A stretch of 64,000 bases of DNA. Source: Candidatus Woesearchaeota archaeon. GTDB taxonomy: Archaea > Nanobdellota > Nanobdellia > Woesearchaeales > JAFGUC01. Positions 9,136 through 32,878 of this stretch are shown here, piece after piece. The notes beneath the pieces were generated by a model that ran no database searches, had not been told where the DNA came from, and saw only the letters and a program-made list of their open reading frames with translations. Each line of letters starts with the position of its first letter. Position 1 is the stretch's first letter. The stretch spans positions 124,001-188,000 of the forward strand of contig JAFGUC010000006.1 in assembly GCA_016938695.1 (NCBI GenBank), in the 5' to 3' direction. A program made the position numbers and the translations under genes.

Positions 9136-10707
9136 TTACAAAAATTTTTGTAATCCTGTTGTCTGGTAGAGTTCAAGGTATTGGTTAGGTACTTGTGAGC
9201 ATTCATTGTTTTTTTTGCAATTTGAGCAATATGGAGAGTTTCCTGCGTTAACAACTTCGAGATAATATGTCCATTTTTTGTTTTTTTGTGGGAGTACACA
9301 TAACGGTATTTTTTCAAAATCAAAGCTTGTTTGAGTTGTGTTTAAGTAGATTAACATTCTTGATATTTCTGGTTTAATTTCTTCGTATGTTGGCATAACT
9401 TCTGTTGGATTTTCATGTTTGAAATCAATTAATCCTGATGTTCGAGTTTTTGTTACTTTGAGATTTTCAATTAGATATTTTTTTATTTCTGTGAGTTTTT
9501 TGTAATTTTGTTTGCAGATTACTGTGTTTACATTAATTGATATGTTGTTTTCAACACAATTTCTTATTCCTTGACTTGTTTCTTCAAAACTATTTTTTGT
9601 TCTAGTTATTTGTTCGTGAAGTTCTGGTGTGTCGCCATGTAGTGATGTATATACATGTGTTAGGCCTTTGTTGATTAAATTTTGTAGATATTCTTTTGAT
9701 GCTAATTTTCTGCAGTTGGAAGTAATTGTGAATTGCAGTCCTTTTTCAAAGGCAAAATCAATCATATCAAGAAAATCAGGATTTGTTGTACATTCTTCAC
9801 CACAGAAATTCACGAAATCATATTCATTTTCTTTAATTTTCTTTTTGAATTCATTTAATGTAGTGTATTTTACTCGATGATTTTGTGTTTGGAAACAAAA
9901 AATGCATTTATTATTGCATTTGTCAAGAAATACCACATATCCTTTAAGGTTGTATAGATATGAATTTTTTTTGATGAATATTGCGTGAATTTCATTTTCT
10001 GTATTTTTATTAAGATTAATTAATTCATAAAATCCATATTTTTCTGCTATTTGTAAAATTTCACTATATTTGATGTTATTTCTGTTTGCCTTTATAATCA
10101 AAAATTTATTAACATCAAGAAGAGAAAATACTTTTCGAAATATTTGATTGAATGTTTTGAATATTTCTTCTGTTGTAAGATCTTCAATGAGTGGTCGGCA
10201 AATAATTATGTCAAATTTTGTATTGAATGTATTGTAGTTTAGGTTATCTATTGATTGGTTTTTAGTATTTTCAATTTCTAAATATTTGTTTATTCTTGAA
10301 ATTGTTTCATTATTATCGATACCGTATGATTGAAATCCTATTTCTTTTAGGAATTTTACAAATATTCCTATATTTGTTCCAATGTTGAGAATTTTTACAT
10401 TTTTTCTTTTTATTTTTAATGTGTCAATTATCTTTAAGATTAGTTTAATTTCAGTAGAATTATTTGAAATTTCTTGTTTTGTATTTGTTATTTCTTTAAT
10501 TGTATTAACGTATTCTTTTAGAATTTCTTTTTTTATTGCTGTAATTATTTCTTTCGAAGAACTAATTGTATTAGGATACTTTTTTATTGCTTCTTCAATT
10601 GAATTAAATTCAACATTTTTTATTTTAATTGTTTGTTTTGAGTTTTCTAGAGTTTCGGCAATTTCTTTTATCTTTTCTTCAATACTATTTTCCATCTTAA
10701 ATTTCAT
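9136..10707 (-). CDS. Methyltransferase-radical SAM fusion protein
   Basis: A 523-residue two-part enzyme. Residues 1-95 are helical. Residues 100-245 look like a class I SAM methyltransferase (ILNIGTNIG at 106-114, IDNNET, then a FDIIICRP motif IV position). Residues 255-523 form a radical SAM domain with C264, C268 and C271 in CNNKCIFC. The usual GGE motif reads CGEECTT, so its first Gly is replaced. The C-terminus has C470, then C494, C497 and C503 (C-x2-C-x5-C), an auxiliary-cluster pattern shared with three enzymes at 26.7-32.9 kb. It overlaps the end of the GT4 gene by 11 bp; ATG 10695 is an alternative start. The substrate is unknown; the shared C-terminus suggests a link to the His-repeat system. 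Confidence 0.8.
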   Translation of the reverse strand: MKFKMENSIEEKIKEIAETLENSKQTIKIKNVEFNSIEEAIKKYPNTISSSKEIITAIKKEILKEYVNTIKEITNTKQEISNNSTEIKLILKIIDTLKIKRKNVKILNIGTNIGIFVKFLKEIGFQSYGIDNNETISRINKYLEIENTKNQSIDNLNYNTFNTKFDIIICRPLIEDLTTEEIFKTFNQIFRKVFSLLDVNKFLIIKANRNNIKYSEILQIAEKYGFYELINLNKNTENEIHAIFIKKNSYLYNLKGYVVFLDKCNNKCIFCFQTQNHRVKYTTLNEFKKKIKENEYDFVNFCGEECTTNPDFLDMIDFAFEKGLQFTITSNCRKLASKEYLQNLINKGLTHVYTSLHGDTPELHEQITRTKNSFEETSQGIRNCVENNISINVNTVICKQNYKKLTEIKKYLIENLKVTKTRTSGLIDFKHENPTEVMPTYEEIKPEISRMLIYLNTTQTSFDFEKIPLCVLPQKNKKWTYYLEVVNAGNSPYCSNCKKNNECSQVPNQYLELYQTTGLQKFL

Positions 10708-11827
10708 CTAGAACTTTTTTTATTTTTTTTGCAGTGTTTTCCCACTGATAATTATTTATTATTGTTAATCTTGCATTCTTTCCAAGTTTATCTCTTAGTT
10801 CTGGATTTTCAATAAGATGTGCGATTTTGGTGTATAATGAATATGCATCTTTTTTCTCGAAGAAAACTCCATTTACACCTTTTGTAATGTAATTTTTAAT
10901 GAAACCAACTTTTGTACTGATAACTGGTAGTCCGCAGGACATTGCTTCCATTACTGTTAATGATGTTGTTTCAGTAAGTGATGGCAAAACAAATATGTCC
11001 ATTGCTTGATAGTATCTTGTTGGATTGTTTTGTGCATCTAGAACGATAACATTTCTTTTTGTTCGTAAAAAGTTTTTCTGTGATTCTAGACCATTTCCAA
11101 CAATAAGAAGAATTGTTTTTTCGTGTTCTTTTCTTACACGTACAAACGCCCTATAAAGTGTCATTAAATCTTTTTCTCTTGCGATTCTTCCAATGTAGCC
11201 AATTACTGTATGATCAACAGGAATATTGATGTCTGTTTTTGATAATCTTTTATTTGGACTTTCACAGAATTTGTTAGAATCAGTTCCTAAGTGGACTATT
11301 TCTTTTTTTGGTCTTATTTTATTCCATGTAAATAATTCAGCAACATCTACGCTTGGCACTAGTATTTTTGTGCATCTGTTATAATGTCTTCTTGCTTTAA
11401 ATTTTACAATGGAGTTTATTTTTTTTCGAAATATACTTCCTATACTTCTGGAAACTAATTCCCATTCAATAGAATGTACGTACGCAATTATTTTTTTGCG
11501 CATTTTTTTTGCAATTTTAACACTGTTGGTTCCAATTGGTCCCATTGTTTGTGCAAAAACAATATCTGATTCTGCAATTAATTTAGATAAAATTTCTTTT
11601 TTAGGAATTGCAAAAGAAATATCTGAAATTTGAAGAAATGTTTTGAAATAGATAATTTTAACTCCTTCGATGTTTATTTTATTTCCAGGGAAATCAGGTG
11701 CAACAACAGTAATGTTAAAATTTTCTTTTATTTTTGGAATTATTTCGTATAAGAATCTAGCAATTCCGTCCCATCTTGGTAAAAAACAGTCTGTTGCAAT
11801 TAAAACATTTCTTATTTCTTTTTCCAT
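10697..11827 (-). CDS. GT4-family glycosyltransferase
   Basis: A 376-residue GT-B enzyme. The N-terminal half opens RNVLIATDCFLPRWDGIARF. The C-terminal donor-binding half has VIGYIGRIAREKDL, a YYQAMDIFVLPSLTETTS stretch and EAMSCGLPVIST, the E-x7-E region typical of retaining GT4 enzymes. It transfers a sugar from a nucleotide donor at the cytoplasmic face. It sits 1 bp after the PIG-L deacetylase in the same direction, a pairing seen in N-acetylhexosamine pathways (transfer, then deacetylation), and overlaps the radical SAM gene after it. Acceptor and sugar are unknown. Confidence 0.92.
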   Translation of the reverse strand: MEKEIRNVLIATDCFLPRWDGIARFLYEIIPKIKENFNITVVAPDFPGNKINIEGVKIIYFKTFLQISDISFAIPKKEILSKLIAESDIVFAQTMGPIGTNSVKIAKKMRKKIIAYVHSIEWELVSRSIGSIFRKKINSIVKFKARRHYNRCTKILVPSVDVAELFTWNKIRPKKEIVHLGTDSNKFCESPNKRLSKTDINIPVDHTVIGYIGRIAREKDLMTLYRAFVRVRKEHEKTILLIVGNGLESQKNFLRTKRNVIVLDAQNNPTRYYQAMDIFVLPSLTETTSLTVMEAMSCGLPVISTKVGFIKNYITKGVNGVFFEKKDAYSLYTKIAHLIENPELRDKLGKNARLTIINNYQWENTAKKIKKVLDEI

Positions 11828-11828
11828 T

Positions 11829-12488: not shown

Positions 12489-12539
12489 TTTTATTTGTTT
12501 TAACAATTATTATTAGTTTATATCCTTTTTTGTCTACAT

Positions 12540-12686
12540 TGTTATTCTTTCTTTTATAAATCTAATAGAAAATATAGAATTTACTAGAAACAAAATGCAT
12601 CAATTGGATACTGAGACCTAGAATTTTGTTTATAGAATTTGATATTGTGTTTCGCTAAAGCTCAAGCACATTCAATAAATAAGAAT
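12540..12686. other. Intergenic stretch with an orphan TATA box
   Basis: This stretch between the deacetylase start and tRNA-Gly holds no ORF. A palindromic TTTATAAA at 12553-12560 faces about 120 bp of sequence without a start codon followed by a frame of any length on the plus strand. A small RNA is possible; I see no convincing C/D or H/ACA motif. Confidence 0.25.
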
Positions 12687-12757
12687 GCACCGACCGGGAT
12701 TCGAACCCGGATAGACGGCTTGGAAGGCCGCAATCATAGCCATTAGACCATCGGTGC
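12687..12757 (-). tRNA. tRNA-Gly (TCC)
   Basis: A 71-nt cloverleaf on the minus strand: acceptor GCACCGA/TCGGTGC, anticodon loop CTTCCAA giving TCC, and T-arm CCGGGTTCGAATCCCGG. A TTTATAAA box (12783-12790) lies about 30 bp upstream of the 5' end. Confidence 0.97.
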
Positions 12758-12864
12758 GCTATCTTATTGACAAAATACGCTATTTATAAATTTTTTTGTT
12801 TTTAAAGTTTTATTTATGTATTTCATAGTTAGTTTTTTAAATATATCGCTTTAGTATTGTTGTA

Positions 12865-13968: not shown

Positions 13969-14009
13969 AAATAGTAAGTAATAAAAATAAATATCAATTC
14001 TAGGTTATT

Positions 14010-14720
14010 ATGACTAAATTTTTATCTGTTGTTGTTCCTTGTTATAATGAATCTAAAATTATTTCTAGTACCTTCTTATCTATTTTGAATTTTTTGTCAT
14101 CAAAAAAATATTCTTATGAAATTATCTTTTGTAATGATGGTTCAACTGATAATACTCTAGAAAAACTTTTAGACATTAAAAGAAATTATAATTTTGTAAA
14201 AATTATTTCATTTTCTAAAAATATGGGTTTAGGATATTCTATGAAAAAATTATTTGATTATTCTGATGGAGAATATGTAATCCAGTTGGATGCAGATTTA
14301 TCGACTCCAGTCACTATTATTGATTCTATTTTGTTGCAGTTATTGAATAATGATGTTGTTATTGCTTCAAGGTATCATAAAAATTCTTCAGTTAAAATTA
14401 GTTTCAAAAGATTATTTTTGAGTAGGGTATATAATCTTTTTATTAGAGTCTTATTTGGAGTTAAGTTAAATGATACTCAAAGTGGATTTGTTGGGTTTAG
14501 ACGTCATGTTGTAAAAGCAATTTTGTTTAAATCGAGGCGTTTTGATTATCATATTGAATTCATGACAAAAATTACGCGGGCAAGTTGTAGGATAAAAGAA
14601 ATACCTAGTTTGTATGTTCATAGGGAGCGTGATTCAAAGTTTAATATCTTTAAAGATGGATTGGATACACTATATTCTACTTTTAAATTGTTTTGGAAGT
14701 TAAATTATGGCAAAAATTAG
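14010..14720 (+). CDS. GT2 glycosyltransferase, dolichyl-phosphate-sugar synthase type
   Basis: A 236-residue GT-A enzyme opening FLSVVVPCYNESKII, with CNDGSTDNT and the metal-binding DADLS (QLDADLSTP). The downstream QSGFVGFRR segment is typical of DPM1/ALG5-like GT2 proteins that move a sugar from a nucleotide to a polyprenyl phosphate. No membrane segments follow, so it is the soluble type. It overlaps the following oxidoreductase by 14 bp (operon). Together with the GT2 at 16963 and the membrane enzyme at 17637 it suggests lipid-linked sugar donors for surface glycosylation. Confidence 0.9.
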   Translation: MTKFLSVVVPCYNESKIISSTFLSILNFLSSKKYSYEIIFCNDGSTDNTLEKLLDIKRNYNFVKIISFSKNMGLGYSMKKLFDYSDGEYVIQLDADLSTPVTIIDSILLQLLNNDVVIASRYHKNSSVKISFKRLFLSRVYNLFIRVLFGVKLNDTQSGFVGFRRHVVKAILFKSRRFDYHIEFMTKITRASCRIKEIPSLYVHRERDSKFNIFKDGLDTLYSTFKLFWKLNYGKN

Positions 14721-15555
14721 AGTTGCACTTATTGGTCTTGGATATTGGGGTAGTAAACATCTCGAATTTTTTAAGAATTCTTCAGAGATTGAAATAGTTT
14801 ATTTGTGTGATAAAAATAAAATATTGCCAGATTCTAATTTTGTTAAAGATTATAGAGATATTGATGTAACTAAAATTGATTTTGTGGATGTGGTTACTTC
14901 AGAAGAAACACATTTTGAAATTGCAGATTATTTCTTGTCTAAAGATGTTTATGTTTTTTTAGAGAAACCATTATGTGTTGATTCTGAGGATTTGAATAAT
15001 TTTTCAAAAAACCCTAATCATGATAAATTAATGGTTGGATATTTATATAATTTTGATAAAGCATTAGATAGTTTTTTTGAAAACAATTCGGATTTAAATT
15101 CATTAAATAAGATAGAAATAATTTGGAATGATTTATTATTACGTGATAAGTCTTGTTCGATTGTTGCGGATTTAGGACCTCATGTTTTTTCAATATTGAA
15201 TAGATTTTCAGAAAATATTAATATTGATTGTGTCGAGAAAAGTAAATTATTAACTAGTATTTATGGAACGATTAAGATTTCTGAAAGATTTGTTCCTTTC
15301 TATATTTCCTTGAGTTGGAATTCAGAAATTAAACAGCGTTTGGTTAAAATTCATTCAAATGAGTCGTTTACAATTATTGATTGTTTGAATGGTTGTATAA
15401 ATTTAGAACAATTGCCAAAATATTATACGCTTAGTCTTGAATTGGAATATTTCATTAATGTTGTTAGGAAACAACAATTAGTTAAAATTAATTCTTTAGA
15501 TTATGGAATACAAGTATTTAAGTTGTGGTTTCCAATTGATTCAGTATCTAAATGA
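14707..15555 (+). CDS. Gfo/Idh/MocA-family oxidoreductase
   Basis: A 282-residue NAD(P)-dependent sugar dehydrogenase-type protein. The N-terminal Rossmann fold is IRVALIGLGYWGSKHLEFF, and the catalytic-lysine motif is EKPLC. The C-terminal half is a beta-rich substrate domain (VADLGPHVFSILNRF). Such enzymes oxidise or reduce nucleotide-sugar intermediates, commonly next to glycosyltransferases. It overlaps the GT2 before it by 14 bp. The 3' end overlaps convergently with the radical SAM gene by 8 bp. It is slightly shorter than the usual 330-370 residues. Confidence 0.88.
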   Translation: MAKIRVALIGLGYWGSKHLEFFKNSSEIEIVYLCDKNKILPDSNFVKDYRDIDVTKIDFVDVVTSEETHFEIADYFLSKDVYVFLEKPLCVDSEDLNNFSKNPNHDKLMVGYLYNFDKALDSFFENNSDLNSLNKIEIIWNDLLLRDKSCSIVADLGPHVFSILNRFSENINIDCVEKSKLLTSIYGTIKISERFVPFYISLSWNSEIKQRLVKIHSNESFTIIDCLNGCINLEQLPKYYTLSLELEYFINVVRKQQLVKINSLDYGIQVFKLWFPIDSVSK

Positions 15556-16909
15556 AGTCTTTCTTGAGTTTGTTTTTTTTTGAAAAGAAATATTTTATAA
15601 ATTGGAATGTAATTTTGATTGTTTGAATTGGATATTTTATTAAAAATTTTAGTGTTCTTATTATTGTTAAAAAATTAAAGTAGTATGTTTTGTAAAATAT
15701 TTTTTCAAGATTTATTTTAGTGTACTTAATTGAATATGGAAATAATGAAAATTCTATTTTGTCTTTATTTTCTATAAAGAACTTTGTTTTTGGATATGGT
15801 GTTAATTGACTAACTATTGCAAAATCTATGTTTAATTTTGTAGCGTCTTTTGCATCTTTTTTTATGGATTTTATGGTATCATTAGGAAATCCTACTAAGA
15901 ACCAAGCAATTACTTCAATGTTATATTTTTTTAATATCTTTATTATTTCTCTACAATTTTGTGATTTGTTGTTTGAATATTTTTGATTCTCTTTTTGTAG
16001 ACTTTCAATTCCTATGTAAATTCTATAGCATCCTGCTTTTTTCATCTCTGAAATTATTTTTTCGTCAAGTAGATCAACTCTACATAAGCACGACCATTTT
16101 AATTTTAGTTTGTTTGTTCTAATTAGTCTGCATAATTTAATTGTTTCTTCACTATTTATGTTGAATGTATCATCCATGAATCTTATGTTTTTGACTTTTT
16201 CAGATTCTGTTAGATGTTTTAATTCTTCTATGATGTTGTTGTTGCTTCTTCGATAGTATTTTGTTCCGTATGTTTGTATACAAAAATCGCAGTTGAATGG
16301 ACATCCTCGTCCTGCAAGAACTGTTGTGAATCTTTTGTTACTGAATATATCTTTGTATTTTTTTGATGTTGTTCTAGGATATCTAATTTGATTTAGATTT
16401 TTTATTCTTTTTTGCATTTCATTGTCTATTATTTTATTTTCTGTTTTGTATGAAATGCCTTTTTGATTTTCGAATTTTGTGTTTTTTTCAATTTTTTTAA
16501 TTAATTCTTGTATTGTTTTTTCTGGTTCATTTTTGATGATAATATCAATTTTTGTTTTTTGAAGTATCTCTTTAGGAAAAATAGTTGGATAATATCCTAT
16601 TGCAATTACTGTTGCTTTGCAATTTTTTTTAATAATTGAAACTGAGTTAATATCTTCGTTGAAACTTTCAATTCCGATTAATGTTATTATTACGTCTGGT
16701 TTTGTTATTTTTATGGTTTTTATTAATTTGGTAATTGTTGTTTTTTCTGCAATGCAGTCTATAATTTTTATTTGATGTTTTTGGTCAATGTTTTCTGCAA
16801 TGTATTTTAGCTCTAATGGTGGAAATAAGAATTCTTTTGCATAATATGTACAAGAAAATCTTCGTATTATTTGTTCTTTGAATGGTAAGTTTATAAGTAA
16901 AATTTTCAT
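15548..16909 (-). CDS. Cobalamin-binding-type radical SAM protein (class B)
   Basis: A 453-residue enzyme. Residues 1-140 form a B12-binding-like Rossmann domain (MKILLINLPF; FPPLELKYIAE; VIAIGYYPTI). The radical SAM cluster is C203, C207 and C210 in RGCPFNCDFC, followed by IRFMDDTFNI and IGIESLQKE. The basic C-terminal 70 residues are rich in Lys and Ile. It resembles BchE/hopanoid/fungal-type B12-radical SAM enzymes that methylate or rearrange lipids, sugars or peptides. A DxHxxG cobalamin-ligand motif is not seen, as in many of this class. It is divergent from the GT2 at 16963, sharing a palindromic TATA. Confidence 0.88.
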   Translation of the reverse strand: MKILLINLPFKEQIIRRFSCTYYAKEFLFPPLELKYIAENIDQKHQIKIIDCIAEKTTITKLIKTIKITKPDVIITLIGIESFNEDINSVSIIKKNCKATVIAIGYYPTIFPKEILQKTKIDIIIKNEPEKTIQELIKKIEKNTKFENQKGISYKTENKIIDNEMQKRIKNLNQIRYPRTTSKKYKDIFSNKRFTTVLAGRGCPFNCDFCIQTYGTKYYRRSNNNIIEELKHLTESEKVKNIRFMDDTFNINSEETIKLCRLIRTNKLKLKWSCLCRVDLLDEKIISEMKKAGCYRIYIGIESLQKENQKYSNNKSQNCREIIKILKKYNIEVIAWFLVGFPNDTIKSIKKDAKDATKLNIDFAIVSQLTPYPKTKFFIENKDKIEFSLFPYSIKYTKINLEKIFYKTYYFNFLTIIRTLKFLIKYPIQTIKITFQFIKYFFSKKNKLKKDFI

Positions 16910-16962: not shown

Positions 16963-17640
16963 ATGAACGATCTTACAGTAATCATTCCAACATATAATGA
17001 ATGTCTAAATATTGGTAATTTAATAGGGACGATTTTAAGATTATATCCACAGGTTAAGATAATTGTTTCAGATGATGGTTCTACTGATGGCACTAAAGAA
17101 ATTGTGTTATCTTTTTCTCATTCTGTTTTTTTGTTGGATAGAACCTCTAGTAAAGTCCATGGACTAACAGCTTCTGTTGTGCATGCAGTTAGTTATGTTA
17201 AAACAAAGTATTTTGTAGTGTTAGATGGAGATTTTCAACATCCACTAACATTTATTTCGAATATTTATCAAAATTTAATACTTGGTTCTAGTATTGTAAT
17301 TGGTTCTCGGAAAAGACGAACAATTCATTGGGAAAAATATTCTAGAAAATTCATATCTGATTTTGGTACGTTTTTAGGAATTTTACGACTGAAAGTTAAT
17401 GGTGTTACTGTTAGAGATCCATTATCGGGATTTTTTGGAATGAGAACATCTATTTTTCGATTGTTAAATTTACGCAGATTTGTTCCAAAAGGCTACAAGG
17501 TTTTGTATGACGTTCTTAAGCAAATGAATTCTTCAAAGATAATTCAAGAATTATATTTTGAATTCCAGTTCAGAAAAAATGGTTCGTCTAAAATTGCATT
17601 TAAACACTTTTATTATTATTTGTTGTCTATGTTAAAATGA
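16963..17640 (+). CDS. GT2 glycosyltransferase, polyprenyl-phosphate-sugar type
   Basis: A 225-residue GT-A enzyme with LTVIIPTYNECLNIGNLI, SDDGSTDGTKE, the metal-binding LDGDFQHP, and RDPLSGFFGMR, all typical of dolichyl-phosphate mannose synthase-like proteins. It ends in an ATGA overlap with the large membrane protein, which probably uses the lipid-linked sugar made here. Confidence 0.9.
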   Translation: MNDLTVIIPTYNECLNIGNLIGTILRLYPQVKIIVSDDGSTDGTKEIVLSFSHSVFLLDRTSSKVHGLTASVVHAVSYVKTKYFVVLDGDFQHPLTFISNIYQNLILGSSIVIGSRKRRTIHWEKYSRKFISDFGTFLGILRLKVNGVTVRDPLSGFFGMRTSIFRLLNLRRFVPKGYKVLYDVLKQMNSSKIIQELYFEFQFRKNGSSKIAFKHFYYYLLSMLK

Positions 17641-20690: not shown

Positions 20691-20771
20691 TTTTCCAAGA
20701 GTATTAGTTCCATTTAAAAAGTGTTTCGTTTTTTAGAAATTTATTTAAATACTTTATATTTAATTTCACAA

Positions 20772-24054: not shown

Positions 24055-25721
24055 TTTATATTTTCTGGTCTTGCGAAAGGGTCCAATTCTGCAATATTTC
24101 CTTTATTTTTTAGTGCTGAAAATCTACATCCACCGAGGCATTGTGATAGAAGGTAGCACACCTTACATTCATTTGGAATTAATATTCCATTTTTTGTGTT
24201 TGAAAAAATAGGTGAGTTTGTTATTTCTTTGAAGTTGTTTTCATTTAATTTCGTGTTTGGTTCATTAATTGAATAACAGTATTTTAGTTCTCCGTTTGGA
24301 TTCAGAACTATTGTATTTCCAATTCCACACGTCCAGAATCCGTTACTGATATCTTTTAAAATTTCAGGTTTGTAAAAGCAAAATGGTAGTGCGGTAATGT
24401 GGATTTTGTATTTTGACGATGTATTATGTATATGTATTTTATCAATTAGATTTTCAAGTTCTTTGAAGTTGATTGAATTTTTTGTGTTTGGATTGTCAAT
24501 TGGTCTAAGATATGTTATTTCAGATTTGCAATCTTGTGATAACTGTTCATATATTTCAAAATTATTAATTGTTTCATGATTTGTTATGACATTGATAATT
24601 TTTCTTGGTTTATTTAGATTTGTTAGAATTTTTTTGATTTGTTTTGTTTCAGAATTAATTTTGTGGATTGAAATCATGATTTGATCAACATTGTTATTAA
24701 TAAATTCAATATCATTTTCTTCTAATTTTAGTCCATTAGTATTAAGTAAAACTTTTAATTGTAATTCTTTGGCGTACTCAATTAAATCCCAAATATCTTT
24801 TCTAATGGTTGGTTCTCCACCAGTGAACCTTATTGTTTGAATGTCGTTGTTTTTTAGGATTTTTATGTTTGTTTTGATTTCATCTGTTGTTAATTCATTC
24901 TGTGTCTGTTTACTGTTTTTATTCATACAAAATTCACAATTTAAATTACAATCATATGTTATTTCTAGTTTAGCTTCTATTGGTTTTAATGGAATGTTTT
25001 TTATTTGATTAATTATTAAATCATTTTTATGTGCGAAAAGTCCGTCACAATTATCGAGATTTTCACATAGTTGACAAATTGTTTTATCTGTGTTCTCTTT
25101 TATGTCATAACTACTACCATCATATTTTTTTGTATTATCATTAAATAATACTTTAATGCATTCTGGAATGTTTGCTGTGTGTAAAATTAATTCTTGATTT
25201 TTGATTTGATTGATTTTCTCGTAGAATTCTACATAATTAATATATTCAGAATAGTTGTTAAGTTCGTTAGTATTTTCTGGGAAAAAAAACTCAAATATAA
25301 ACTCTTTAATTATTGGAATAAAATAATTTATTATTTTTGGAATATTTGTTGTTTTTCTAATTTGAATTAAAATTTTGGTTTTATTTTTAATTTTGTTTAG
25401 TAGATTTATGTTTATATTTTGTTGTATGAATGGTTCTGCTTTAATTATGATTTCTGTACTGATTTCATCAATGACTTTTGTTTTGTCTGAATCTTGTAAA
25501 AATGATCCGTTTGTTATTATTACTACTTCTTTTTTTGTTAGTTGATTTGTTATGCTTTTTAATTTATTTATGTCAAGAGTAGGCTCTCCTCCAAAAATAA
25601 TTATTCTGTTTTCTTTTATTTTGTTTATTATATTTGAGCTAGAATCTTCTAGATTATATTTTCTATAACAATTACTGCAATTTAGATTACATTCATTTGA
25701 AAGTTTGATATATTGTTTCAT
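24051..25721 (-). CDS. Tandem double radical SAM protein with C-terminal SPASM
   Basis: A 556-residue protein with two complete radical SAM units. Unit 1 (residues 1-230) has C11, C15 and C18 (CNLNCSNC), GGEPT at 44-48, and an auxiliary set C188, C216, C219 and C225 (C-x2-C-x5-C). Unit 2 (250-556) has C258, C262 and C265 (CNLNCEFC), GGEPT at 301-305, and a SPASM-type set C448, C465, C482, C519, C522, C528 and C532. Up to four Fe-S clusters are predicted. SPASM enzymes commonly modify peptides. The gene is divergent from the His-repeat peptide genes and shares a symmetric TATA element with them, which makes those peptides the obvious candidate substrates. Confidence 0.88.
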   Translation of the reverse strand: MKQYIKLSNECNLNCSNCYRKYNLEDSSSNIINKIKENRIIIFGGEPTLDINKLKSITNQLTKKEVVIITNGSFLQDSDKTKVIDEISTEIIIKAEPFIQQNININLLNKIKNKTKILIQIRKTTNIPKIINYFIPIIKEFIFEFFFPENTNELNNYSEYINYVEFYEKINQIKNQELILHTANIPECIKVLFNDNTKKYDGSSYDIKENTDKTICQLCENLDNCDGLFAHKNDLIINQIKNIPLKPIEAKLEITYDCNLNCEFCMNKNSKQTQNELTTDEIKTNIKILKNNDIQTIRFTGGEPTIRKDIWDLIEYAKELQLKVLLNTNGLKLEENDIEFINNNVDQIMISIHKINSETKQIKKILTNLNKPRKIINVITNHETINNFEIYEQLSQDCKSEITYLRPIDNPNTKNSINFKELENLIDKIHIHNTSSKYKIHITALPFCFYKPEILKDISNGFWTCGIGNTIVLNPNGELKYCYSINEPNTKLNENNFKEITNSPIFSNTKNGILIPNECKVCYLLSQCLGGCRFSALKNKGNIAELDPFARPENIK

Positions 25722-25797: not shown

Positions 25798-26196
25798 ATG
25801 GTTTTCCCAAAGTTCAAGCGCAAAGTTGCTGATTATTTAGGTTCTGAAGATGGATTTGTGGTAAGCAAAAAAATGCTTGCTTTAGGTTCCGTTGTTTTAT
25901 CGGGTAGCATTGCTTTATTGGGAAAAGAAGTTGCAGCACATTCTACGCATTGTAGTGGTTCAGTTAATGAATTTGGTTATAGTTGTAGTAATGATGGTTT
26001 AGCTGGTGTATTGACTCATAGTACGCATGGTAGTCATGGTAGTCATGGTAGTCATGGTTCACATACCACACATAACACTCATTCAAATCATAGTACGCAC
26101 GGTAGTCATGCAAGTCATGGCAGTCATTCAAATTCACATGTAAATCATTGTACTCATGCAACACATTCATCGCATGGTACTCATAGTAGTTATTAA
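25798..26196 (+). CDS. His-Xaa-Ser/Thr repeat peptide 1 (HxsA-like, predicted radical SAM substrate)
   Basis: A 132-residue precursor. Residues 1-22 are a basic block (FPKFKRKVADYLGSEDGFV), 25-42 are hydrophobic, and KEVAA-H at 43-48 looks like a signal-peptidase site. Residues 48-73 carry HSTHC and YSCS. From H74 to H129 there is a His every third residue (H-small-Ser/Thr), with one register slip between H110 and H114. There are 21 His and three Cys in all. The chain ends in Tyr. Triplet His repeats next to radical SAM genes define bacterial HxsA. Alternatives are a simple metal-binding protein, but the neighbours argue against it. The start has AGGTG five bases upstream. It is 5 bp from the second peptide gene. 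Confidence 0.82.
   Translation: MVFPKFKRKVADYLGSEDGFVVSKKMLALGSVVLSGSIALLGKEVAAHSTHCSGSVNEFGYSCSNDGLAGVLTHSTHGSHGSHGSHGSHTTHNTHSNHSTHGSHASHGSHSNSHVNHCTHATHSSHGTHSSY
26017..26184 (+). repeat. 9-bp codon repeat encoding His-Xaa-Ser/Thr (peptide 1)
   Basis: Nineteen imperfect copies of a CAT-GGT-AGT-like 9-mer, with the third and first codons varying among Gly, Ser, Ala, Thr, Asn, Val and Cys. The longest near-identical run is about 26027-26060. It is coding repeat, expanded at protein level, not a CRISPR array. Confidence 0.85.
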
Positions 26197-26201: not shown

Positions 26202-26642
26202 ATGTTTCCGAAATTAAAGAAAAAGATAGGGGATTATTTAAGTAATGAAGATGGCAGTGTTTTGAGATCTTCGACATTGAAGATTGCTGCGGTTGTAGTT
26301 CCTTCTGCTGTAATTTTATCTCAGTTATCATATGCAGCACATACTAATAATTTATTGGCAAAGTATGCTTCTGTAAATGGTGGAGTTGTAGGTTCAATAC
26401 ACAGTTCTCACGGAACTCACGGAACTCACAGTTCTCATGGAACTCACTCTAGTCATAATACTCATGCAAGTCATGGAAGTCATGCAACGCATTCTAGCCA
26501 TTCTAGTCATGGAAGCCATTGTACTCACAGTACTCACAGTACTCATAGTACTCATGGAACTCATGGTAGTCATGGTAGTCATTCAACGCATTCGTCACAT
26601 AGTACGCATGGTAGTCATGGTTCTCATTCTGACGGTTATTAG
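26202..26642 (+). CDS. His-Xaa-Ser/Thr repeat peptide 2 (HxsA-like, predicted radical SAM substrate)
   Basis: A 146-residue paralogue of the preceding gene. The leader repeats the same plan: FPKLKKKIGDYLSNEDGSV (2-20), a hydrophobic stretch 25-44, then YAA-H at 44-47. A spacer (48-66) precedes 26 His residues in an unbroken period of three from H67 to H142, each followed by a small residue and Ser or Thr. One Cys (C107) falls in the Xaa position. The chain ends SDGY, so both peptides finish in Tyr. With all His on one face of a three-fold helix, a modified or metal-loaded rod is conceivable. Co-transcribed with peptide 1. Confidence 0.82.
   Translation: MFPKLKKKIGDYLSNEDGSVLRSSTLKIAAVVVPSAVILSQLSYAAHTNNLLAKYASVNGGVVGSIHSSHGTHGTHSSHGTHSSHNTHASHGSHATHSSHSSHGSHCTHSTHSTHSTHGTHGSHGSHSTHSSHSTHGSHGSHSDGY
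26400..26627 (+). repeat. 9-bp codon repeat encoding His-Xaa-Ser/Thr (peptide 2)
   Basis: Twenty-six contiguous 9-bp units with CAT or CAC as the invariant first codon and AGT, ACT or TCT-like third codons. Synonymous codons vary between units, so the amino-acid pattern is held more strictly than the DNA, which suggests selection on the protein. Confidence 0.85.
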
Positions 26643-26692
26643 TTTAATACAAAGATTTTTATAGTTCTATTTTTTTTGTGGTTTTGGTAGGC

Positions 26693-28486
26693 ATGGATGT
26701 GTATATACAGTTAACAAGGGATTGTAATCATGATTGTATTTTTTGTTCTGCTCCTAAAGATGATTTATATCTCTCGTATGAGGATATCATTTCTAGAATT
26801 GATAAATTTAGTACACAAGGTGTGGGAAAAACTCCTTCAGGCGATTTTGTTTTAACTGGTGGTGAACCAACAAAACATCCTGATTTACTGAAAATTTTTT
26901 CATATTTATCTGAACGAAATTTGTATTTTCGGGTTATTACTAATGGTGTAAATCTTAAAGATCCTGTGTTTGTAAAACAAATGTATGATGCTGGTTTACG
27001 TAGGATTTACATTTCAGTTCATCATTTTGATCCAAAAGAGTCTATGGAAATATCTTCTGCAGATTATCCTGATTTGATTGATACTCTAAAAGGAATAGAT
27101 AATGTAACAAAATATTCTGATGTTGATGTTTGTATTAATACTACAATTATTCGACAGAATTACAAGGTTTTGTTAGATATTGCAAAGCAGTTTGTTCCTA
27201 AATATGAAAACGTTCGAGCATTTACTTTTAATTTTGTTGATATTTGTGGAAATATTGTAAATGGAAAAAATTCTGCAGAATCAATTGTTCCTAAGTATAG
27301 TGAATGTGAGAAGTATTTGTACGATGTTTTTCGATATTTAATTAAACATCGAATTGTTTTTAGATTTGAACGTTCTCCATTATGTTATGCTCGAGGTTTT
27401 GAGGAATATTCTAGTGATGCAAATAGAAATGTAGGTGCAGAATTTTATTATACAACATTTACTGATTCTAAACAAAAAGATACTAATTATAATCTATATG
27501 GTTTTGTTAAGTCTAGTGATTGTATGTTGTGTTCTTTGAATAGTATTTGTTCAGGAATTTCTGGTCGTTATGCTGAAATTTATGGACTTAGTGAGTTATA
27601 TCCTGTTTTTGATGATGCTTCTCAAATAGAGATGAAAATTAAACTTCAAAATAATTATAAGGAAAAATTATTTATCAATAAAATTGATTCTCTAAATTAT
27701 ACTGATTTGAAACAAACTTTATTGAATGGTTTTAATAACCTTGATGGATTTTCAAGATTAATCAAACCAAAACGGAAAGTCCTTTTGAAGTTTGATGTAG
27801 GAGGAAGTTCTGTTAATTTTGCTCTTTTGAAAAATTTGATAGAATCTTTACAATCCAATGAAAATGAAGTTGTTGTTTGTGATGGTTTAATTGATTGCGA
27901 TTCAAATAAATCTATATCTTCTTTTGATAATTCTGGATTAAAAGAATTTTGTGATAAAATGAATGTTAGTTGTGTTAATTTGTTATCGTATGGTTATCAT
28001 AAAATTACGATTAAAAATCCTTTACTTTCAAGTTCAGTTGAAGTTAGTGATGTTGTCGATACGGTTGACTTTATAATTAATGTTTCACAATTGAGAAAAC
28101 ACGATATGACTAATCTACATTGTGCAATTTCTAATATTTTTGGTTTAGTTTCATCAAAGACATGTAATGACTTAAATTTATTGCAGGACAAGAAATCTTA
28201 TAATTCTTTGATTGTTGATATTTATTCTTATTTTAAATCAAAAATTAGTTTGAATATTCTTGATGCGACAACATTACATGATTCAAAAGATTTTGCGTTG
28301 AATAATATATTATCAAATTTTATTATATTGTCTCGTGATGGCTTGGCAGTTGATACTGTTGCATCTTATATTGTTTTAAGAGATATTTTATCACTTCCAA
28401 CAAATGTGCTTGCAGAAAAAAAGAATTTAGGATTTTTAGATTTAGAAAGAGTTAATTTTTTTGGTAATACTTTAGATGATTTTTAA
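26693..28486 (+). CDS. Radical SAM-DUF362 fusion protein
   Basis: A 597-residue fusion. Residues 1-300 are a radical SAM domain with C11, C15 and C18 (CNHDCIFC), GGEPT at 56-60, and the auxiliary set C231, C277, C280 and C286. Residues about 350-595 match DUF362: KRKVLLKFDVGGSS, VVDTVDFIINVSQLRKHDMT, AISNIFGLVSSKTCND, ILDATT and ILSRDGLAVDTVAS. DUF362 proteins often carry Fe-S clusters and are of unclear function. The start is ATG 26693, about 35 bp from a TTTTTATAG box; a GTG at 26678 is less likely. It lies directly after the His-repeat peptides and is the first enzyme gene of the cluster. Confidence 0.85.
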   Translation: MDVYIQLTRDCNHDCIFCSAPKDDLYLSYEDIISRIDKFSTQGVGKTPSGDFVLTGGEPTKHPDLLKIFSYLSERNLYFRVITNGVNLKDPVFVKQMYDAGLRRIYISVHHFDPKESMEISSADYPDLIDTLKGIDNVTKYSDVDVCINTTIIRQNYKVLLDIAKQFVPKYENVRAFTFNFVDICGNIVNGKNSAESIVPKYSECEKYLYDVFRYLIKHRIVFRFERSPLCYARGFEEYSSDANRNVGAEFYYTTFTDSKQKDTNYNLYGFVKSSDCMLCSLNSICSGISGRYAEIYGLSELYPVFDDASQIEMKIKLQNNYKEKLFINKIDSLNYTDLKQTLLNGFNNLDGFSRLIKPKRKVLLKFDVGGSSVNFALLKNLIESLQSNENEVVVCDGLIDCDSNKSISSFDNSGLKEFCDKMNVSCVNLLSYGYHKITIKNPLLSSSVEVSDVVDTVDFIINVSQLRKHDMTNLHCAISNIFGLVSSKTCNDLNLLQDKKSYNSLIVDIYSYFKSKISLNILDATTLHDSKDFALNNILSNFIILSRDGLAVDTVASYIVLRDILSLPTNVLAEKKNLGFLDLERVNFFGNTLDDF

Positions 28487-28509
28487 GTTATGGAATAAAT
28501 GGTGTTTAT

Positions 28510-29370
28510 ATGGTGATAGAAGGATATTTTCACATAAAATTGAATAATAATTGTAACTGCAATTGTAATTTTTGTGCAGATTCTCAATCTATTAAGACTA
28601 TTGCACCGCCTTCATTTGAATCAATTAAAAAAAAAATAGATATTGGTTTCGAAAAGGGTTTTAGACAATTAATCATAACCGGTGGTGAACCGACTATATC
28701 TGAATATTTACTAGAAACAATTAGATATGCTAAGTTAGTTGGTTTTAGTTATATACAATTAGTGAGTAACGCTCGAATGTTATCTAATCCTGTTTTTTTG
28801 AATCAAGTTATTGAATCTGGTGTGACTAAATTTCAGATTTCTTATTTTGCTCACGATGCAAAATTGTACGATTCTATTACTAAGGTCCCTGGTAGTTATA
28901 AGCAATTGACAACTGCTTTATTGTTATTAAAAGCAAGATCTTGTGAAATTTCGTTTAATTCGGTGATAACTCGTCAAAACTATAAATTTTTGTTAGAAAT
29001 GTATCTACAAATGCTTGCTTTTAATTCAGTTACAATACAATTTTCATTTTTGAACCCAATTGGAAATGCTGCTCAAGACTTTGATGAGATTGTTCCAAAA
29101 TATACTGAGGTGGCTGGACCTCTTCAAGAGGTTATACGTCTTAATAAGGTAATAAATCCAGATTTAGTTCAAATTGAAAATATTCCTTTTTGTTTTATTG
29201 ATGAAAAGTATCATTACTTGATAACTGATTTACGATGTCCTAAGTCTGAATTGGGTTTAAGAAGGTTAAATAAGACTAAAGACTTAGATATTTGTGTTGG
29301 TTGTAAGTATTATGATTTTTGTTCAGGAATTTGGAAGAAATATGTTGAAGTTCGTGGTACTGATTTTTAA
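28510..29370 (+). CDS. Radical SAM protein with auxiliary cluster motif, HxsC-like candidate
   Basis: A 286-residue radical SAM enzyme with C15, C19 and C22 (within CNCNCNFC, which adds C17), GGEPT at 58-62, a NSVITRQNYKFL segment, and a C-terminal auxiliary set C228, C262, C265 and C271 followed by W-K-K-Y-V-E. The layout and sequence resemble the N-terminal half of the gene before it and the gene at 31844, so these are paralogues. The ribosome site and start (GGTGTTTATATGG) are the same as in peptide gene 1. It likely acts on the His-repeat peptides or assists the SPASM maturase. The HxsC label is tentative. Confidence 0.82.
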   Translation: MVIEGYFHIKLNNNCNCNCNFCADSQSIKTIAPPSFESIKKKIDIGFEKGFRQLIITGGEPTISEYLLETIRYAKLVGFSYIQLVSNARMLSNPVFLNQVIESGVTKFQISYFAHDAKLYDSITKVPGSYKQLTTALLLLKARSCEISFNSVITRQNYKFLLEMYLQMLAFNSVTIQFSFLNPIGNAAQDFDEIVPKYTEVAGPLQEVIRLNKVINPDLVQIENIPFCFIDEKYHYLITDLRCPKSELGLRRLNKTKDLDICVGCKYYDFCSGIWKKYVEVRGTDF

Positions 29371-29383
29371 ATAAAGCAAAAAC

Positions 29384-29392
29384 ATTTAAATA
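29384..29392 (+). promoter_or_regulatory. TATA box ahead of the HxsD-like genes
   Basis: ATTTAAATA lies about 37 bp before ATG 29425, with a run of six G (29413-29418) as ribosome site. It indicates that the HxsD-HxsB-radical SAM group can be transcribed separately from the peptide genes. Confidence 0.5.
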
Positions 29393-29424
29393 AAATACAA
29401 ATAATTTTTAATGGGGGGATTTAT

Positions 29425-30156
29425 ATGGAAACTCTTACTGAGGAAGTGTTAAAACCAGTTTTAGAAAAGTTAAATTTTGTTACTCTTGGTGTAGGTTTTG
29501 CGAAGATTTCTTTGCGATTTGAATTATACGATTTAGAATCAATTTATTCAGCAGCGTACTCGATGTTTGATAAAGCAAGTTTCTTTTTTGATGGAGATTC
29601 ACAAAAAGCAATTGTATATATTTTTGCAAAAAAACCACAAGATTTGTACAGTTGTGTTCTTGAATTTAATAATCATTTGATTAATTATTCATATTATAAA
29701 ATTCGTTCATCCGAGAATAAAAAATTGAAAGAATTTATTTTATCAAAATCTTTGTTTGGTATTCCAACTGAAGAATCTGTTTCTCAACCACAAGAACCAT
29801 GTGATTGTGAAATTCAAAATTGTGATGAAGATGTTTTTTCCCAGCAACCATCTGTTGATGATGTAAATCTTGATGATTTTGAGGTTGAAGATTTGGATAG
29901 TATTAGAGTACCTTGGGAAGATAAAAATGATGCAGATTTATTGGAATCTGAGCGTGAAAAGTTAGATGAACTTTTTAAGGAAGAACCTTCAAAATCTGAA
30001 CAAGGTAAAAAACCAGTACAATCTGAACAGACAGATGATGGTTCAGATGATTTTTCTATACCTTGGTCTGAAGAAGATATTGAATTATCAGAATCAGACT
30101 TAGCAGAATTGAAAAAACTCTATGATGATGAATCTTTTGTTGGAGATGAAAAATGA
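29425..30156 (+). CDS. HxsD-like protein with acidic C-terminal extension
   Basis: A 243-residue protein. Residues 28-113 resemble bacterial HxsD: a YDLESIYSAAYSMFDKASFF segment, a strand pair (KAIVYIFAKK), then EFNNHLINYSYYKI in the position of the HxsD LLNDYxLRE-type motif, and a final helix (EFILSKSLFG). Residues 115-243 are unlike HxsD: strongly acidic and disordered, with two related blocks around IRVPWEDKNDADLLESE and FSIPWSEEDIELSESD. HxsD accompanies HxsB and HxsC but has no proven role; a substrate-binding adaptor is plausible. The acidic tail could bind the His-rich peptide or a metal. It overlaps the next gene by ATGA. Confidence 0.68.
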   Translation: METLTEEVLKPVLEKLNFVTLGVGFAKISLRFELYDLESIYSAAYSMFDKASFFFDGDSQKAIVYIFAKKPQDLYSCVLEFNNHLINYSYYKIRSSENKKLKEFILSKSLFGIPTEESVSQPQEPCDCEIQNCDEDVFSQQPSVDDVNLDDFEVEDLDSIRVPWEDKNDADLLESEREKLDELFKEEPSKSEQGKKPVQSEQTDDGSDDFSIPWSEEDIELSESDLAELKKLYDDESFVGDEK

Positions 30157-30413
30157 AAATAACTGAACAGCGTTTAAATTTGGATTTTGATTCTGGAGTT
30201 GCGCATGTCGAGTTTAATAAACTTTTTTATGAGAAATCTTTAATTTTAGAGGTTTGTTCAGAGTTTTTAGAAATCTTTTATTTCGTATTTGATGAATCAG
30301 CAGATTATTTTTCTCTTAGTTTGGTCGATAGAAAAAAAGGAGATTTTAAGGAAGCAGTTTATGAATTTTTCAATTACTTAGTTGGAGTTCAAGTTTCTTT
30401 GATAAAATCATAG
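30153..30413 (+). CDS. Second HxsD-like small protein
   Basis: An 86-residue protein with the same secondary-structure plan as the HxsD region before it: FNKLFYEKSLILEVCSEF, a strand pair, then AVYEFFNYLVGVQ in place of the LLNDY-type motif. It lacks the acidic tail and the last helix. No signal peptide is present. It overlaps the preceding gene (ATGA) and is 10 bp from the HxsB-like gene. A heterodimer with the first HxsD-like protein is possible. The family link is weaker than for the neighbour. Confidence 0.55.
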   Translation: MKITEQRLNLDFDSGVAHVEFNKLFYEKSLILEVCSEFLEIFYFVFDESADYFSLSLVDRKKGDFKEAVYEFFNYLVGVQVSLIKS

Positions 30414-30423
30414 GTGATTTAGA

Positions 30424-31878
30424 ATGTCTAATTTTGATTATAAAGTAGTACCTTACAAAATAAAGAGATATGATGATAAATTTTTGGTCATTAGTGATTT
30501 TGGTCAGTGGATAGTTTTAAATTCTGAAGATTATAAGAAGTTCAAATTTAAAAATTTGGATCATGAACTTTATTCAAAATTAGAGAACTCTGGAATTATT
30601 ATAACTCCAGGAAATGAAGCAAATCTATTTACTTCATTGACAAATTACAAATGGAATATTTCTAAAGGTCCAACTTTACATATTTTGGTACCAACTTTAA
30701 GGTGTAATCAAACTTGCAAGTATTGTTATGCTTTACGAGTAAAAGAAGATTTACAAGGTTATGACATGACTGAAGAAACTGCAAAGCAAACAGTTGATTT
30801 TATTTTTAGTACACCTTCTCCAATATACTCTATTGAGTTTACTGGTGGTGAACCTTTGTTACGTTTTGATATTGTTAAGTATGTTGTTGATTATGCAACT
30901 GAATTGGCAAAAAAATATTCTAAGAGTGTTGTTTTTTCAATTGTTACTAATGGTTTGTTGTTTGATGATGAGAAAATTCAGTATTTTTATGATAATAAAG
31001 TCGGTCTCTGTTTATCGTTAGATGGACCAAAAGAATTGCACGATTATCATAGAATGAAAAATTTACCAGGTATGCCTGGAACATATGATGATGTAATTAA
31101 GATTATTTCACATTTACGTGATATTAAATATCCTAGTGTAAATGCATTACCTGTTATTACTAAAAAATCTTTAAGTTATTGGAAAGAATTAGTTGATGAG
31201 TATGTTCGATTTAATTTCCAAGCTCTACGTTTTAAGTACATAGGTTTTTTTGGGTTTGCAACAGGTAATTGGAAAGAATTAGGTTATACTCCTGAAGAAT
31301 TTTTAGAAATCTGGAAACAAGTTATTGATTATATGATTGATTTAAATGCGAAAGGTATTGTTATTTCAGAACAACTAGCAACGATTATGCTTAAGAAAAT
31401 TTTAAATTTTGAGAATCCTGGTTATTCTGAATTAGATTTTCCTTGTGGCGCAGTAATTGGTCAGTTGTTGTATAATTATGATGGAAAGATTTATACTTGT
31501 GATGAATCACGAACGCATGAAGAGTTTGCAATAGGTCACGTTTCTACATCAAAATTATCTGAGTTGTTAAATCATGACGTTACAAAAACAATGATTTCAG
31601 TATCAAATAATTTGTCGTTTGGTTGTGATTTATGTCCTTACTATCCTTATTGTGGAGTTTGTCCATTAGAGAATTATAAATCTGAAGGAACATTCATGGT
31701 TAATATGCCTTCTAATTATAGATGTAAGATGCATAAGGGTATGTTTGATTATATTTTTGATAGATGTATACATAGCGAGAAGCATTTGAAATATTTCAAA
31801 GAATGGGTCGGATATCGAGATAATCAACTTTCAACTAAAGGTTGTGATTGGTCGGGTATGGAAATTGGAAAGAATTGA
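30424..31878 (+). CDS. hxsB: HxsB-like radical SAM/SPASM maturase
   Basis: A 484-residue enzyme. The N-terminal 80 residues (YKIKRYDDKFLVISDFGQW) match the HxsB-type preamble. The cluster motif is C94, C98 and C101 within PTLHILVPTLRCNQTCKYC, GGEP is at 141-144, and the SPASM domain has C341, C359, C401, C404, C410, C413 and C434. The CGAVIGQLLYNYDGKIYTCDE segment is strikingly like bacterial HxsB. SPASM maturases install thioether, ether or C-C crosslinks or epimerise residues in peptides; what HxsB does to HxS repeats is not known. A GGTGATT ribosome site precedes ATG 30424. It overlaps the next gene by 35 bp. Confidence 0.8.
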   Translation: MSNFDYKVVPYKIKRYDDKFLVISDFGQWIVLNSEDYKKFKFKNLDHELYSKLENSGIIITPGNEANLFTSLTNYKWNISKGPTLHILVPTLRCNQTCKYCYALRVKEDLQGYDMTEETAKQTVDFIFSTPSPIYSIEFTGGEPLLRFDIVKYVVDYATELAKKYSKSVVFSIVTNGLLFDDEKIQYFYDNKVGLCLSLDGPKELHDYHRMKNLPGMPGTYDDVIKIISHLRDIKYPSVNALPVITKKSLSYWKELVDEYVRFNFQALRFKYIGFFGFATGNWKELGYTPEEFLEIWKQVIDYMIDLNAKGIVISEQLATIMLKKILNFENPGYSELDFPCGAVIGQLLYNYDGKIYTCDESRTHEEFAIGHVSTSKLSELLNHDVTKTMISVSNNLSFGCDLCPYYPYCGVCPLENYKSEGTFMVNMPSNYRCKMHKGMFDYIFDRCIHSEKHLKYFKEWVGYRDNQLSTKGCDWSGMEIGKN

Positions 31879-32878
31879 TATTAAAACCGGTTATTTGTGT
31901 AATAATAATTGTTTGTTTTGTGTTCAAGCCCATAATAAAAAATATGGCAATCGAACTTTTGATCAGTTGACTAAAGTCTTGGATGATGCATATAAAGATG
32001 GAGTTAGAGGTGTTGTTTTTACAGGAGGAGAGTTTACATTACGTTCTGATTGTATTAAGCTTATTAAGTATGCTCATGATTTGGGGTTTGATTTAATTCA
32101 ATTACAATCTAATGGTCGTTCTTTTTCAAGTGAGAAATTTGTTGATGCTTGTATTGCAGCAGGTGCAAATGAATTTTCTCCGGCTTTACACGGTTATACT
32201 GCAGAGATTCATGATTATCTTACTCGTGCTAATGGTGCGTGGTCTCAAACTGTTAAAGGAATACAAAATATTGTGAAACGTGGTTATAATACTATTGTTA
32301 ATTCAGTTGTTGTTAAACCAAACTATAGATATGTTCCTGAATTGGCAAAATTATTTGTCAAGTTAGATGTTGATCAGTTTCAATTTGCTTTTGTCCATGC
32401 AGTTGGTAATGCGATGTTGTATTATGACAAAATGATTCCGTTTGTTTCTTTGGTTTCACCTTATGTGAAAAAAGGATTACAAATTGGTCTTGATAATAAT
32501 AAGCGAGTTATGGCAGAAGCAATGCCTTATTGTGTTATGCAAGGGTATGAAAGGTATGTTTCTGAATTATATATTCCTCAGACAAGAATTTCAGAAGGAA
32601 ATGAATTAAGACTTGATTTTGAAACAATTAGAAAGACTCAAGGAAAAACTTTATTTCCACAATGTTTAGAATGTGCATTTAGTCAGATTTGTGAGGGTCC
32701 TTGGTTAGAATATCCTCAACAAAGGGGTTCGTCTGAGTTTAAACCTGTGCCTGGAAAGAAAATTTTATCAACACAAGAGATATTAGATGATTATATTAGG
32801 TTTCCAGAAAATCCTTTTAAAGCATTTGGTCCTGATGTTTTTAGAAATGATTTCCGTATTCGTAGAGGTGGAATATGA
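31844..32878 (+). CDS. Radical SAM protein with auxiliary cluster motif, HxsC-like candidate
   Basis: A 344-residue radical SAM enzyme with C19, C23 and C26 (CNNNCLFC), GGEFT at 61-65 (Phe replaces the usual Pro), NSVVVKPNYRYV, and an auxiliary set C230, C274, C277 and C283 followed by P-W-L-E-Y. It is a paralogue of the 28510 enzyme. The frame opens at GTG 31844; TTG 31865 would give MERIDIKTGYLC, which aligns better with its paralogues, so the true start may be there. It overlaps the HxsB-like gene and ends in an ATGA overlap with a membrane protein. Bacterial cassettes pair HxsB with HxsC, which fits the order here. Confidence 0.8.
   Translation: MIGRVWKLERIDIKTGYLCNNNCLFCVQAHNKKYGNRTFDQLTKVLDDAYKDGVRGVVFTGGEFTLRSDCIKLIKYAHDLGFDLIQLQSNGRSFSSEKFVDACIAAGANEFSPALHGYTAEIHDYLTRANGAWSQTVKGIQNIVKRGYNTIVNSVVVKPNYRYVPELAKLFVKLDVDQFQFAFVHAVGNAMLYYDKMIPFVSLVSPYVKKGLQIGLDNNKRVMAEAMPYCVMQGYERYVSELYIPQTRISEGNELRLDFETIRKTQGKTLFPQCLECAFSQICEGPWLEYPQQRGSSEFKPVPGKKILSTQEILDDYIRFPENPFKAFGPDVFRNDFRIRRGGI

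Follow-up and report, generated by a model that had tools for sequence, protein, structure and literature searches.

We analyzed a stretch of 64,000 nucleotides from a Candidatus Woesearchaeota archaeon (GenBank assembly GCA_016938695.1, contig JAFGUC010000006.1, positions 124,001 to 188,000; termed the window herein), which carries a dense cluster of radical S-adenosylmethionine (SAM) genes whose core is identified below as a divergent His-Xaa-Ser (Hxs) system. A six-frame scan found ten CxxxCxxC motifs between 9.1 and 32.9 kb, all within long intact open reading frames (ORFs; nine in total), positioned at 9918, 16303, 20105, 23355, 25691, and 24950 on the minus strand (the last two in one ORF) and at 26723, 28552, 30703, and 31898 on the plus strand; counting this motif overlooks degenerate radical SAM domains. 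All nine proteins (9/9) exceeded the cutoff of Pfam Radical_SAM (PF04055), which bears out the nine proteins and ten domains within 24 kb claimed by a first-pass annotation of this DNA, while the coordinates it gave for the motifs correspond to the left boundaries of the ORFs. The source is a metagenome-assembled genome (MAG; 1.5 Mb, 85 contigs) with 5.4% contamination and is the only genome of its family in our collection. It holds 43 radical SAM matches, and nine radical SAM genes per 24 consecutive genes occurred in none of 20,000 shuffles (41 radical SAM genes among ∼1,500 genes). Two further matches lie just outside the window on its left side (C20:120845 and 122653; labels beginning with C, G, and L are those of the contigs, genomes, and loci in our collection). 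Two genes for histidine-repeat proteins, the putative substrates, sit centrally in the cluster and separate its two arms of radical SAM genes; the first-pass annotation had missed them along with the name of the system. The genes of the cluster are as follows:

9136..10707, minus strand: radical SAM protein with an N-terminal methyltransferase-like part; the radical SAM half is HxsC4-like (NF038332, 88.8 bits, under the cutoff).
15548..16909, minus strand: radical SAM protein of a common family, with a B12-type layout and without a Pfam B12 call.
19239..20690, minus strand: B12-binding radical SAM protein (B12rSAM3; Pfam B12-binding, E value of 4e-10).
20721..21833, plus strand: A24-type (prepilin-peptidase-like) membrane aspartyl protease, Hxs-linked subfamily (PF01478, 29 bits; cutoff, 26.5).
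21823..24054, minus strand: B12-type radical SAM protein fused to a methyltransferase domain (Pfam; weak B12-binding match, E value of 2e-4).
24051..25721, minus strand: protein with two radical SAM domains (Pfam), oriented divergently from HxsA1.
25798..26196, plus strand: HxsA1, His-repeat precursor of 132 amino acids with the leader FPKFKRKVADYLGSEDG and a hydrophobic segment; 21 His residues, with up to 13 H-x-[STN] units in a row.
26202..26642, plus strand: HxsA2, His-repeat precursor of 146 amino acids with a leader profile match; 27 His residues and an uninterrupted run of 25 H-x-[STN] units.
26678..28486, plus strand: radical SAM protein fused to DUF362 (Pfam).
28510..29370, plus strand: HxsCa, HxsC-family radical SAM protein (best match NF038332, 117 bits; TIGR03977, 81 bits; both under the cutoff).
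29425..30156, plus strand: HxsD homologue with an acidic C-terminal tail (TIGR03976, E value of 7e-10, 39.1 bits; cutoff, 50).
30153..30413, plus strand: second HxsD-like protein, 86 amino acids (NF038315 [HxsD_rel], E value of 1e-6).
30424..31878, plus strand: HxsB, radical SAM/SPASM maturase (TIGR03978, 416.6 bits; curated cutoff, 370).
31844..32878, plus strand: HxsCb, HxsC-family radical SAM protein (best match NF038332, 139.9 bits; TIGR03977, 89 bits; both under the cutoff).

The HxsA/B/C/D system, reportedly described by Haft and Basu and covered in NCBIfam by TIGR03976 to TIGR03978 and by the HxsA3, HxsA4, HxsC4, and HxsD_rel models, is a predicted peptide-maturation system known mainly from bacteria. 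That the window encodes an Hxs system is well supported: HxsB exceeds its curated cutoff, HxsC and HxsD homologues adjoin it, and His-Xaa-Ser repeat precursors lie next to them. The system is a divergent variant and not a canonical HxsABCD set, because its HxsC, HxsD, and HxsA members fall under their cutoffs. HxsCa and HxsCb stay far below the TIGR03977 cutoff of 267.9 bits and the HxsC4 (NF038332) cutoff of 500 bits that would mark a canonical HxsC or an HxsC4 (the best score, 139.9, is about 140); relatives 55 to 61% identical to HxsCb were found in genomes G022, G126, G127, and G255. Outside Hxs, HxsB scored only 80 bits against the YhhB and 70 bits against the GrrM/OscB maturase models and also resembles the DynA type. 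The earlier label of peptide-type radical SAM proteins was correct. Among solved structures, HxsB is nearest to a radical SAM domain protein (5wgg) and to anaerobic sulfatase maturases. Homology links the two HxsD-type proteins (hhalign E value of 2e-13), and strand/helix order is the same in the AlphaFold model of the HxsD homologue and the model of the second protein (predicted local distance difference test scores, 91.6 and 88.3, respectively). The HxsD model is a confident small alpha/beta fold; its best PDB matches, which reach a Z of 7.8 and none of which is decisive, are DCoH-like or ferredoxin-like. We did not adopt HxsD as a recognition element of ribosomally synthesized and posttranslationally modified peptides (RiPPs), since a PqqD-like winged helix is absent from the best structural matches, and the weak DCoH/ferredoxin likeness was not used. 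A viral origin was rejected: viral contigs hold only a few, distant HxsB relatives (25 to 32% identity) without a link to this locus.

The precursors gave clear matches to named Hxs precursor models, though below the cutoffs. HxsA1 matched NF038309 (HxsA3) with an E value of 7e-12, under the cutoff, and HxsA2 scored 53.7 bits against NF038313 (HxsA4; cutoff, 55). Their units are mostly H-x-[S/T], many of them H-x-T and a few ending in Asn. Codons for Ser, Gly, and Thr differ among the units, and since synonymous codons vary from unit to unit, the repeat is maintained at the protein level. The leader profile gave exactly three clear matches in this genome, all of them at two loci, the only ones in the genome with a full-length HxsB. 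Across 57 well-aligned leaders, the consensus is L-x-x-E-[ED]-G-[KR]-I-[ST]-K, with the Gly (position 0) kept throughout and Glu at −2 in nearly all; both HxsA leaders of the window retain the EDG. The cores that follow differ across loci (HxS, HxT, HSQ, or TTS repeats), and the three-residue period is constant. One protein (L090 4104-5741) has an HxsA-type leader, then TTS instead of His repeats, and then a long C-terminal domain that by eye resembles those of the long HxsAs of L099, L105, and L124. Another, of 212 amino acids (L163 3200-3838; G022 C9), is HxsA-like with several dozen H-x-T units. In L073 6973-7572 and L117 6850-7422, the HxsA repeats run on into a Peptidase_S74 (endosialidase chaperone) domain; this domain is known from trimeric fibers, and the fusions hint at such fibers. 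A membrane-anchored Cys-rich protein directly follows or lies near HxsA in both archaea and bacteria (L102 11703-12269, L087 2327-2926, L084 11728-12486, L114 11755-12705, and L141 4672-5547); the two that were scanned (L102 and L114) had no Pfam match.

HxsB was present in 61 of 352 genomes of the order (Woesearchaeota-type), with the fragmentation of MAGs making this and the other presence/absence counts underestimates. Named genomes with HxsB include Woesearchaeota, Aenigmatarchaeota, Nanohaloarchaea, Altiarchaeota, Diapherotrites, Fermentimicrarchaeum, and many bacteria. On contig C7, the genome of the window carries another Hxs locus, comprising HxsC, HxsB (442.6 bits), HxsD, HxsA, an A24 protein, and a neighbor of 1,473 amino acids. 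The archaeal cassette has the order A24-HxsD-HxsD2-HxsB-HxsA, and among 40 loci of the order, HxsD was near HxsB in 39, A24 in 33, the HxsA leader in 30, and HxsC in 22. Both catalytic Asp residues are kept in the A24 protein of the window (SYSD and NAAD motifs), placing it in the A24 family. A24 lies near HxsB in 22/25 loci of the order with long flanks, versus 2/17 loci titled bacterial; the genome collection assigns one of these two (L083, JAFCCF010000004.1, titled Aminicenantes bacterium) to this same order of archaea (G232:C12). We considered whether a protein of ∼360 amino acids upstream in bacterial loci is a hidden A24 and rejected the idea, as the sequences inspected were mostly unrelated to each other.

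Several of the additional radical SAM families also follow Hxs. The DUF362 fusion occurs in 12 of the 352 genomes, 11 of them HxsB positive (10/11 outside its own genome; P = 1e-7, where this and the other P values serve only as guides because the compared genomes are not phylogenetically independent). The exception, G022, carries HxsC, HxsD, A24, and a repeat protein resembling HxsA; its HxsD is at a contig end, and HxsB was probably lost to assembly because the locus is broken by contig ends. Among 80 genomes searched (40 HxsB positive and 40 negative), the double radical SAM protein was found in 11 outside genomes, 10 of them HxsB positive (Fisher P = 0.003), and in six it lies within ∼3 kb of HxsB. 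A search of 80 genomes found B12rSAM3 orthologues (46 to 50%) only in Hxs-bearing genomes (G115, G117, G126, G127, and G022), adjoining HxsD in G022 and the DUF362 fusion in G126; in G115 and G117 they are surrounded by glycosyltransferases, away from HxsB. The sole outside match of the 21823 methyltransferase fusion at an E value of ≤1e-25 is on an HxsB contig of G023, and paralogues in its own genome are on C7. One relative (L003 2459-6562; G000 C7) is an ORF of 1,367 amino acids with three Radical_SAM matches, adjoining another relative of 769 amino acids. Three proteins had been called cobalamin-type class B: the call stands for 19239-20690, is weak for 21823-24054, and for 15548-16909 is a layout recognized by inspection only. 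Genomes with Hxs have a median of 16 radical SAM matches per Mb versus 7.7 in the others (Mann-Whitney P = 3e-4), and ∼1.8 extra radical SAM genes lie within 6.5 kb of HxsB, versus ∼0.2 expected from genome density. In G127, contig C41 (L160, L161, and L056) carries 17 radical SAM genes with 21 motifs in 43 kb, above the total of the window, together with HxsA, HxsB, HxsD, a 55% identical HxsC, A24, the DUF362 fusion, the double radical SAM protein, GT2, two GT-C-like membrane proteins, and a relative of a surface protein encoded in the window (see below). Since this gene content is repeated on one contig, the cluster of the window is of a recurrent kind and not a one-off. Scattering in close relatives, proposed at the outset as grounds for rejecting a linked cluster, applies only in part: the core stays together in dozens of loci, and the accessory radical SAM genes vary by genome, as the B12rSAM3 orthologues illustrate.

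Around and among these genes lie further features (GT2, glycosyltransferase family 2; GT-C, glycosyltransferase superfamily C):

12686-12757: tRNA-Gly.
12865-13968: DRG-type GTPase.
14010..15555, plus strand: GT2 glycosyltransferase and GFO/IDH/MocA oxidoreductase, a possible glycan arm.
16963..19238, plus strand: GT2 glycosyltransferase and multi-membrane-span protein, GT-C-like by inspection.
33297..34988, plus strand: multi-membrane-span protein, GT-C-like by inspection, with relatives in the G127 cluster.
35404..42027, plus strand: secreted surface protein of 2,207 amino acids; its C-terminal third is related to a protein of 1,418 amino acids beside the B12rSAM3 orthologue in G127.
42063-55881, same strand and directly downstream: archaeal type IV pilus operon with a canonical A24 (GGGD), large surface proteins, pilin-like proteins, a PilB-type ATPase, and two PilC-type proteins.

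We propose, with a probability of about 0.68, that the window encodes an expanded, divergent archaeal Hxs system that cross-links and otherwise modifies secreted His-repeat fibers at the cell surface; the cross-link chemistry and the fiber are inferred from gene content and homology. Cyclophane-class SPASM maturases bond His, through its C2, to the C-beta of residue i+2, and they also join Phe to Ser two residues on (PMC11002830). The geometry of H-x-S is compatible with such a bond, since known enzymes link His to residue i+2. HxsB, partnered by HxsD, would work along the H-x-[S/T] repeats and form intramolecular cross-links, the simplest being from residue i to i+2, e.g., from His C2 to the Ser/Thr C-beta (a three-residue cyclophane). 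Unactivated carbons are often methylated by B12-type radical SAM enzymes, and the HxsC-type and B12-type proteins may add further linkages or methyl groups. The EDG leader and hydrophobic segment would target the precursor for insertion into the membrane and for cleavage, gene association suggests the A24 protein as the candidate leader peptidase, and the processed, stiffened three-residue-repeat protein would be displayed as a surface fiber, possibly glycosylated by the local transferases. The first-pass suggestion that the genes make a single elaborate surface product or form several linked pathways is upheld in spirit, in that HxsA/B/C/D name a pathway to which extra radical SAM families are tied elsewhere; what is made is likely a ribosomal His-repeat protein and not a glycan.

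Several points weigh against this proposal. HxsC, HxsD, and HxsA are all under curated cutoffs; the radical SAM proteins at 15548 and 9136 are tied to Hxs by position alone; most archaeal Hxs loci need few extra radical SAM proteins; and bacterial Hxs loci mostly lack A24. The leaders of both HxsAs have the Gly of a type IV prepilin and lack the Glu at +5, which is variable across the 57 aligned leaders; cleavage by A24 stays a candidate step because this Glu is not conserved. The top-scoring non-Hxs maturase family for HxsB is PapB (thioether type) and not a cyclophane enzyme, and given its likeness to the PapB and DynA types and its nearest structures, the bond type is a prediction only. We know of no reported reaction of HxsB or HxsC.

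Of the competing explanations, the one that survives best, and that we still consider unlikely, is that two pathways stand side by side: a small Hxs core (25.7 to 32.9 kb) and an independent glycan or lipid pathway of B12-type radical SAM proteins and glycosyltransferases (9 to 24 kb), joined by chance or in a surface-gene hotspot. The first-pass annotation correctly saw sugar genes among the radical SAM genes (glycosyltransferases, a PIG-L deacetylase, and the GFO/IDH/MocA oxidoreductase are interleaved), and the intermixing of the B12-type genes with them suits this explanation, as do the glycosyltransferase surroundings of B12rSAM3 in G115 and G117. The radical SAM set is also not fully contiguous, as the housekeeping genes for tRNA-Gly and the DRG-type GTPase split off 9136-10707, and the arm at 14 to 26 kb is more AT-rich than the flanking DNA. 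Two independent pathways would not predict that B12rSAM3 orthologues were found only in Hxs-bearing genomes, next to HxsD or the DUF362 fusion in two of them, or that 21823 has its sole outside homologue on an HxsB contig.

Less probable still is a role of HxsA as a type IV pilin-like subunit that the neighboring pilus machine assembles, with the A24 protein at 20721 as its prepilin peptidase. The complete pilus operon on the same strand, the linkage of A24 to Hxs loci, and the EDG leader ahead of a hydrophobic stretch are all as expected for a pilin, but HxsA was rejected as a true prepilin for its missing +5 Glu, the A-x-A-like site that by inspection closes the hydrophobic segment also suits signal peptidase I, and pilus genes were not found near most other Hxs loci, so that a pilus link was rejected as a general rule. 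His-rich metal chaperones are common in general, and proteins with 21 and 27 His residues could be expected to bind Zn, Ni, or Cu, but it is very improbable that the HxsAs are unmodified metal-storage or buffering proteins and the radical SAM enzymes serve other targets, given the strict three-residue periodicity, the recurrence of the HxsB-HxsA neighborhood across archaea and bacteria, and the same-type leaders ahead of TTS or HSQ repeats, which fit simple metal binding poorly.

Within the proposed Hxs-based reading, a more far-reaching version, which we regard as doubtful, is that most H-x-[S/T] units of the putative DPANN surface fibers are cross-linked and C-methylated by the radical SAM battery and that the fibers are released by the dedicated A24 protease, making them a chemically built structural fiber and not a small peptide product. 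To our knowledge, no chemistry or function has been assigned to Hxs systems. With a substrate family that has a conserved leader, an archaeal cassette, a candidate protease, and co-occurring enzymes, Hxs chemistry is now directly testable. The roughly 2-fold radical SAM density of Hxs genomes suggests a possible reason for the 40 to 57 radical SAM domains of some small DPANN genomes. Archaeal Hxs was not found in the literature searched, where Hxs is rarely named, and the A24 linkage, the radical SAM expansion, and the archaeal spread look undescribed there.

The system shares with the Hxs of Haft and Basu an HxsB above the cutoff, HxsC and HxsD homologues, His-Xaa-Ser repeat precursors, and a similar gene set; it differs in being archaeal, in having HxsC, HxsD, and HxsA under equivalog cutoffs and two precursors rich in H-x-T, and in its four HxsC-like radical SAM proteins, double radical SAM protein, B12-type radical SAM proteins, and linked A24. 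Compared with archaeal A24 prepilin peptidases, the Hxs-linked A24 has the same fold (Pfam) and both catalytic Asp residues, but [SN]-A-[GA]-D replaces G-x-G-D, and the partner leader in the window is without the prepilin +5 Glu. The triceptide maturases (XncB, OscB, MscB, HaaB, and YhhB) are also SPASM radical SAM enzymes and act on aromatic-X-X motifs, including His to i+2 and Phe-X-Ser (PMC11002830); they belong to another protein family, cyclophane chemistry is only predicted for HxsB, and the precursors of the window are long, built of repeats, and include a membrane segment. Also similar is the poly-cyclopropylglycine RiPP TvgA/TvgB, in which each repeat of a tandem-repeat precursor is modified by a SPASM-type radical SAM enzyme (PMC9062424, PMC11002830), with a different enzyme and different residues and without HxsD or A24.

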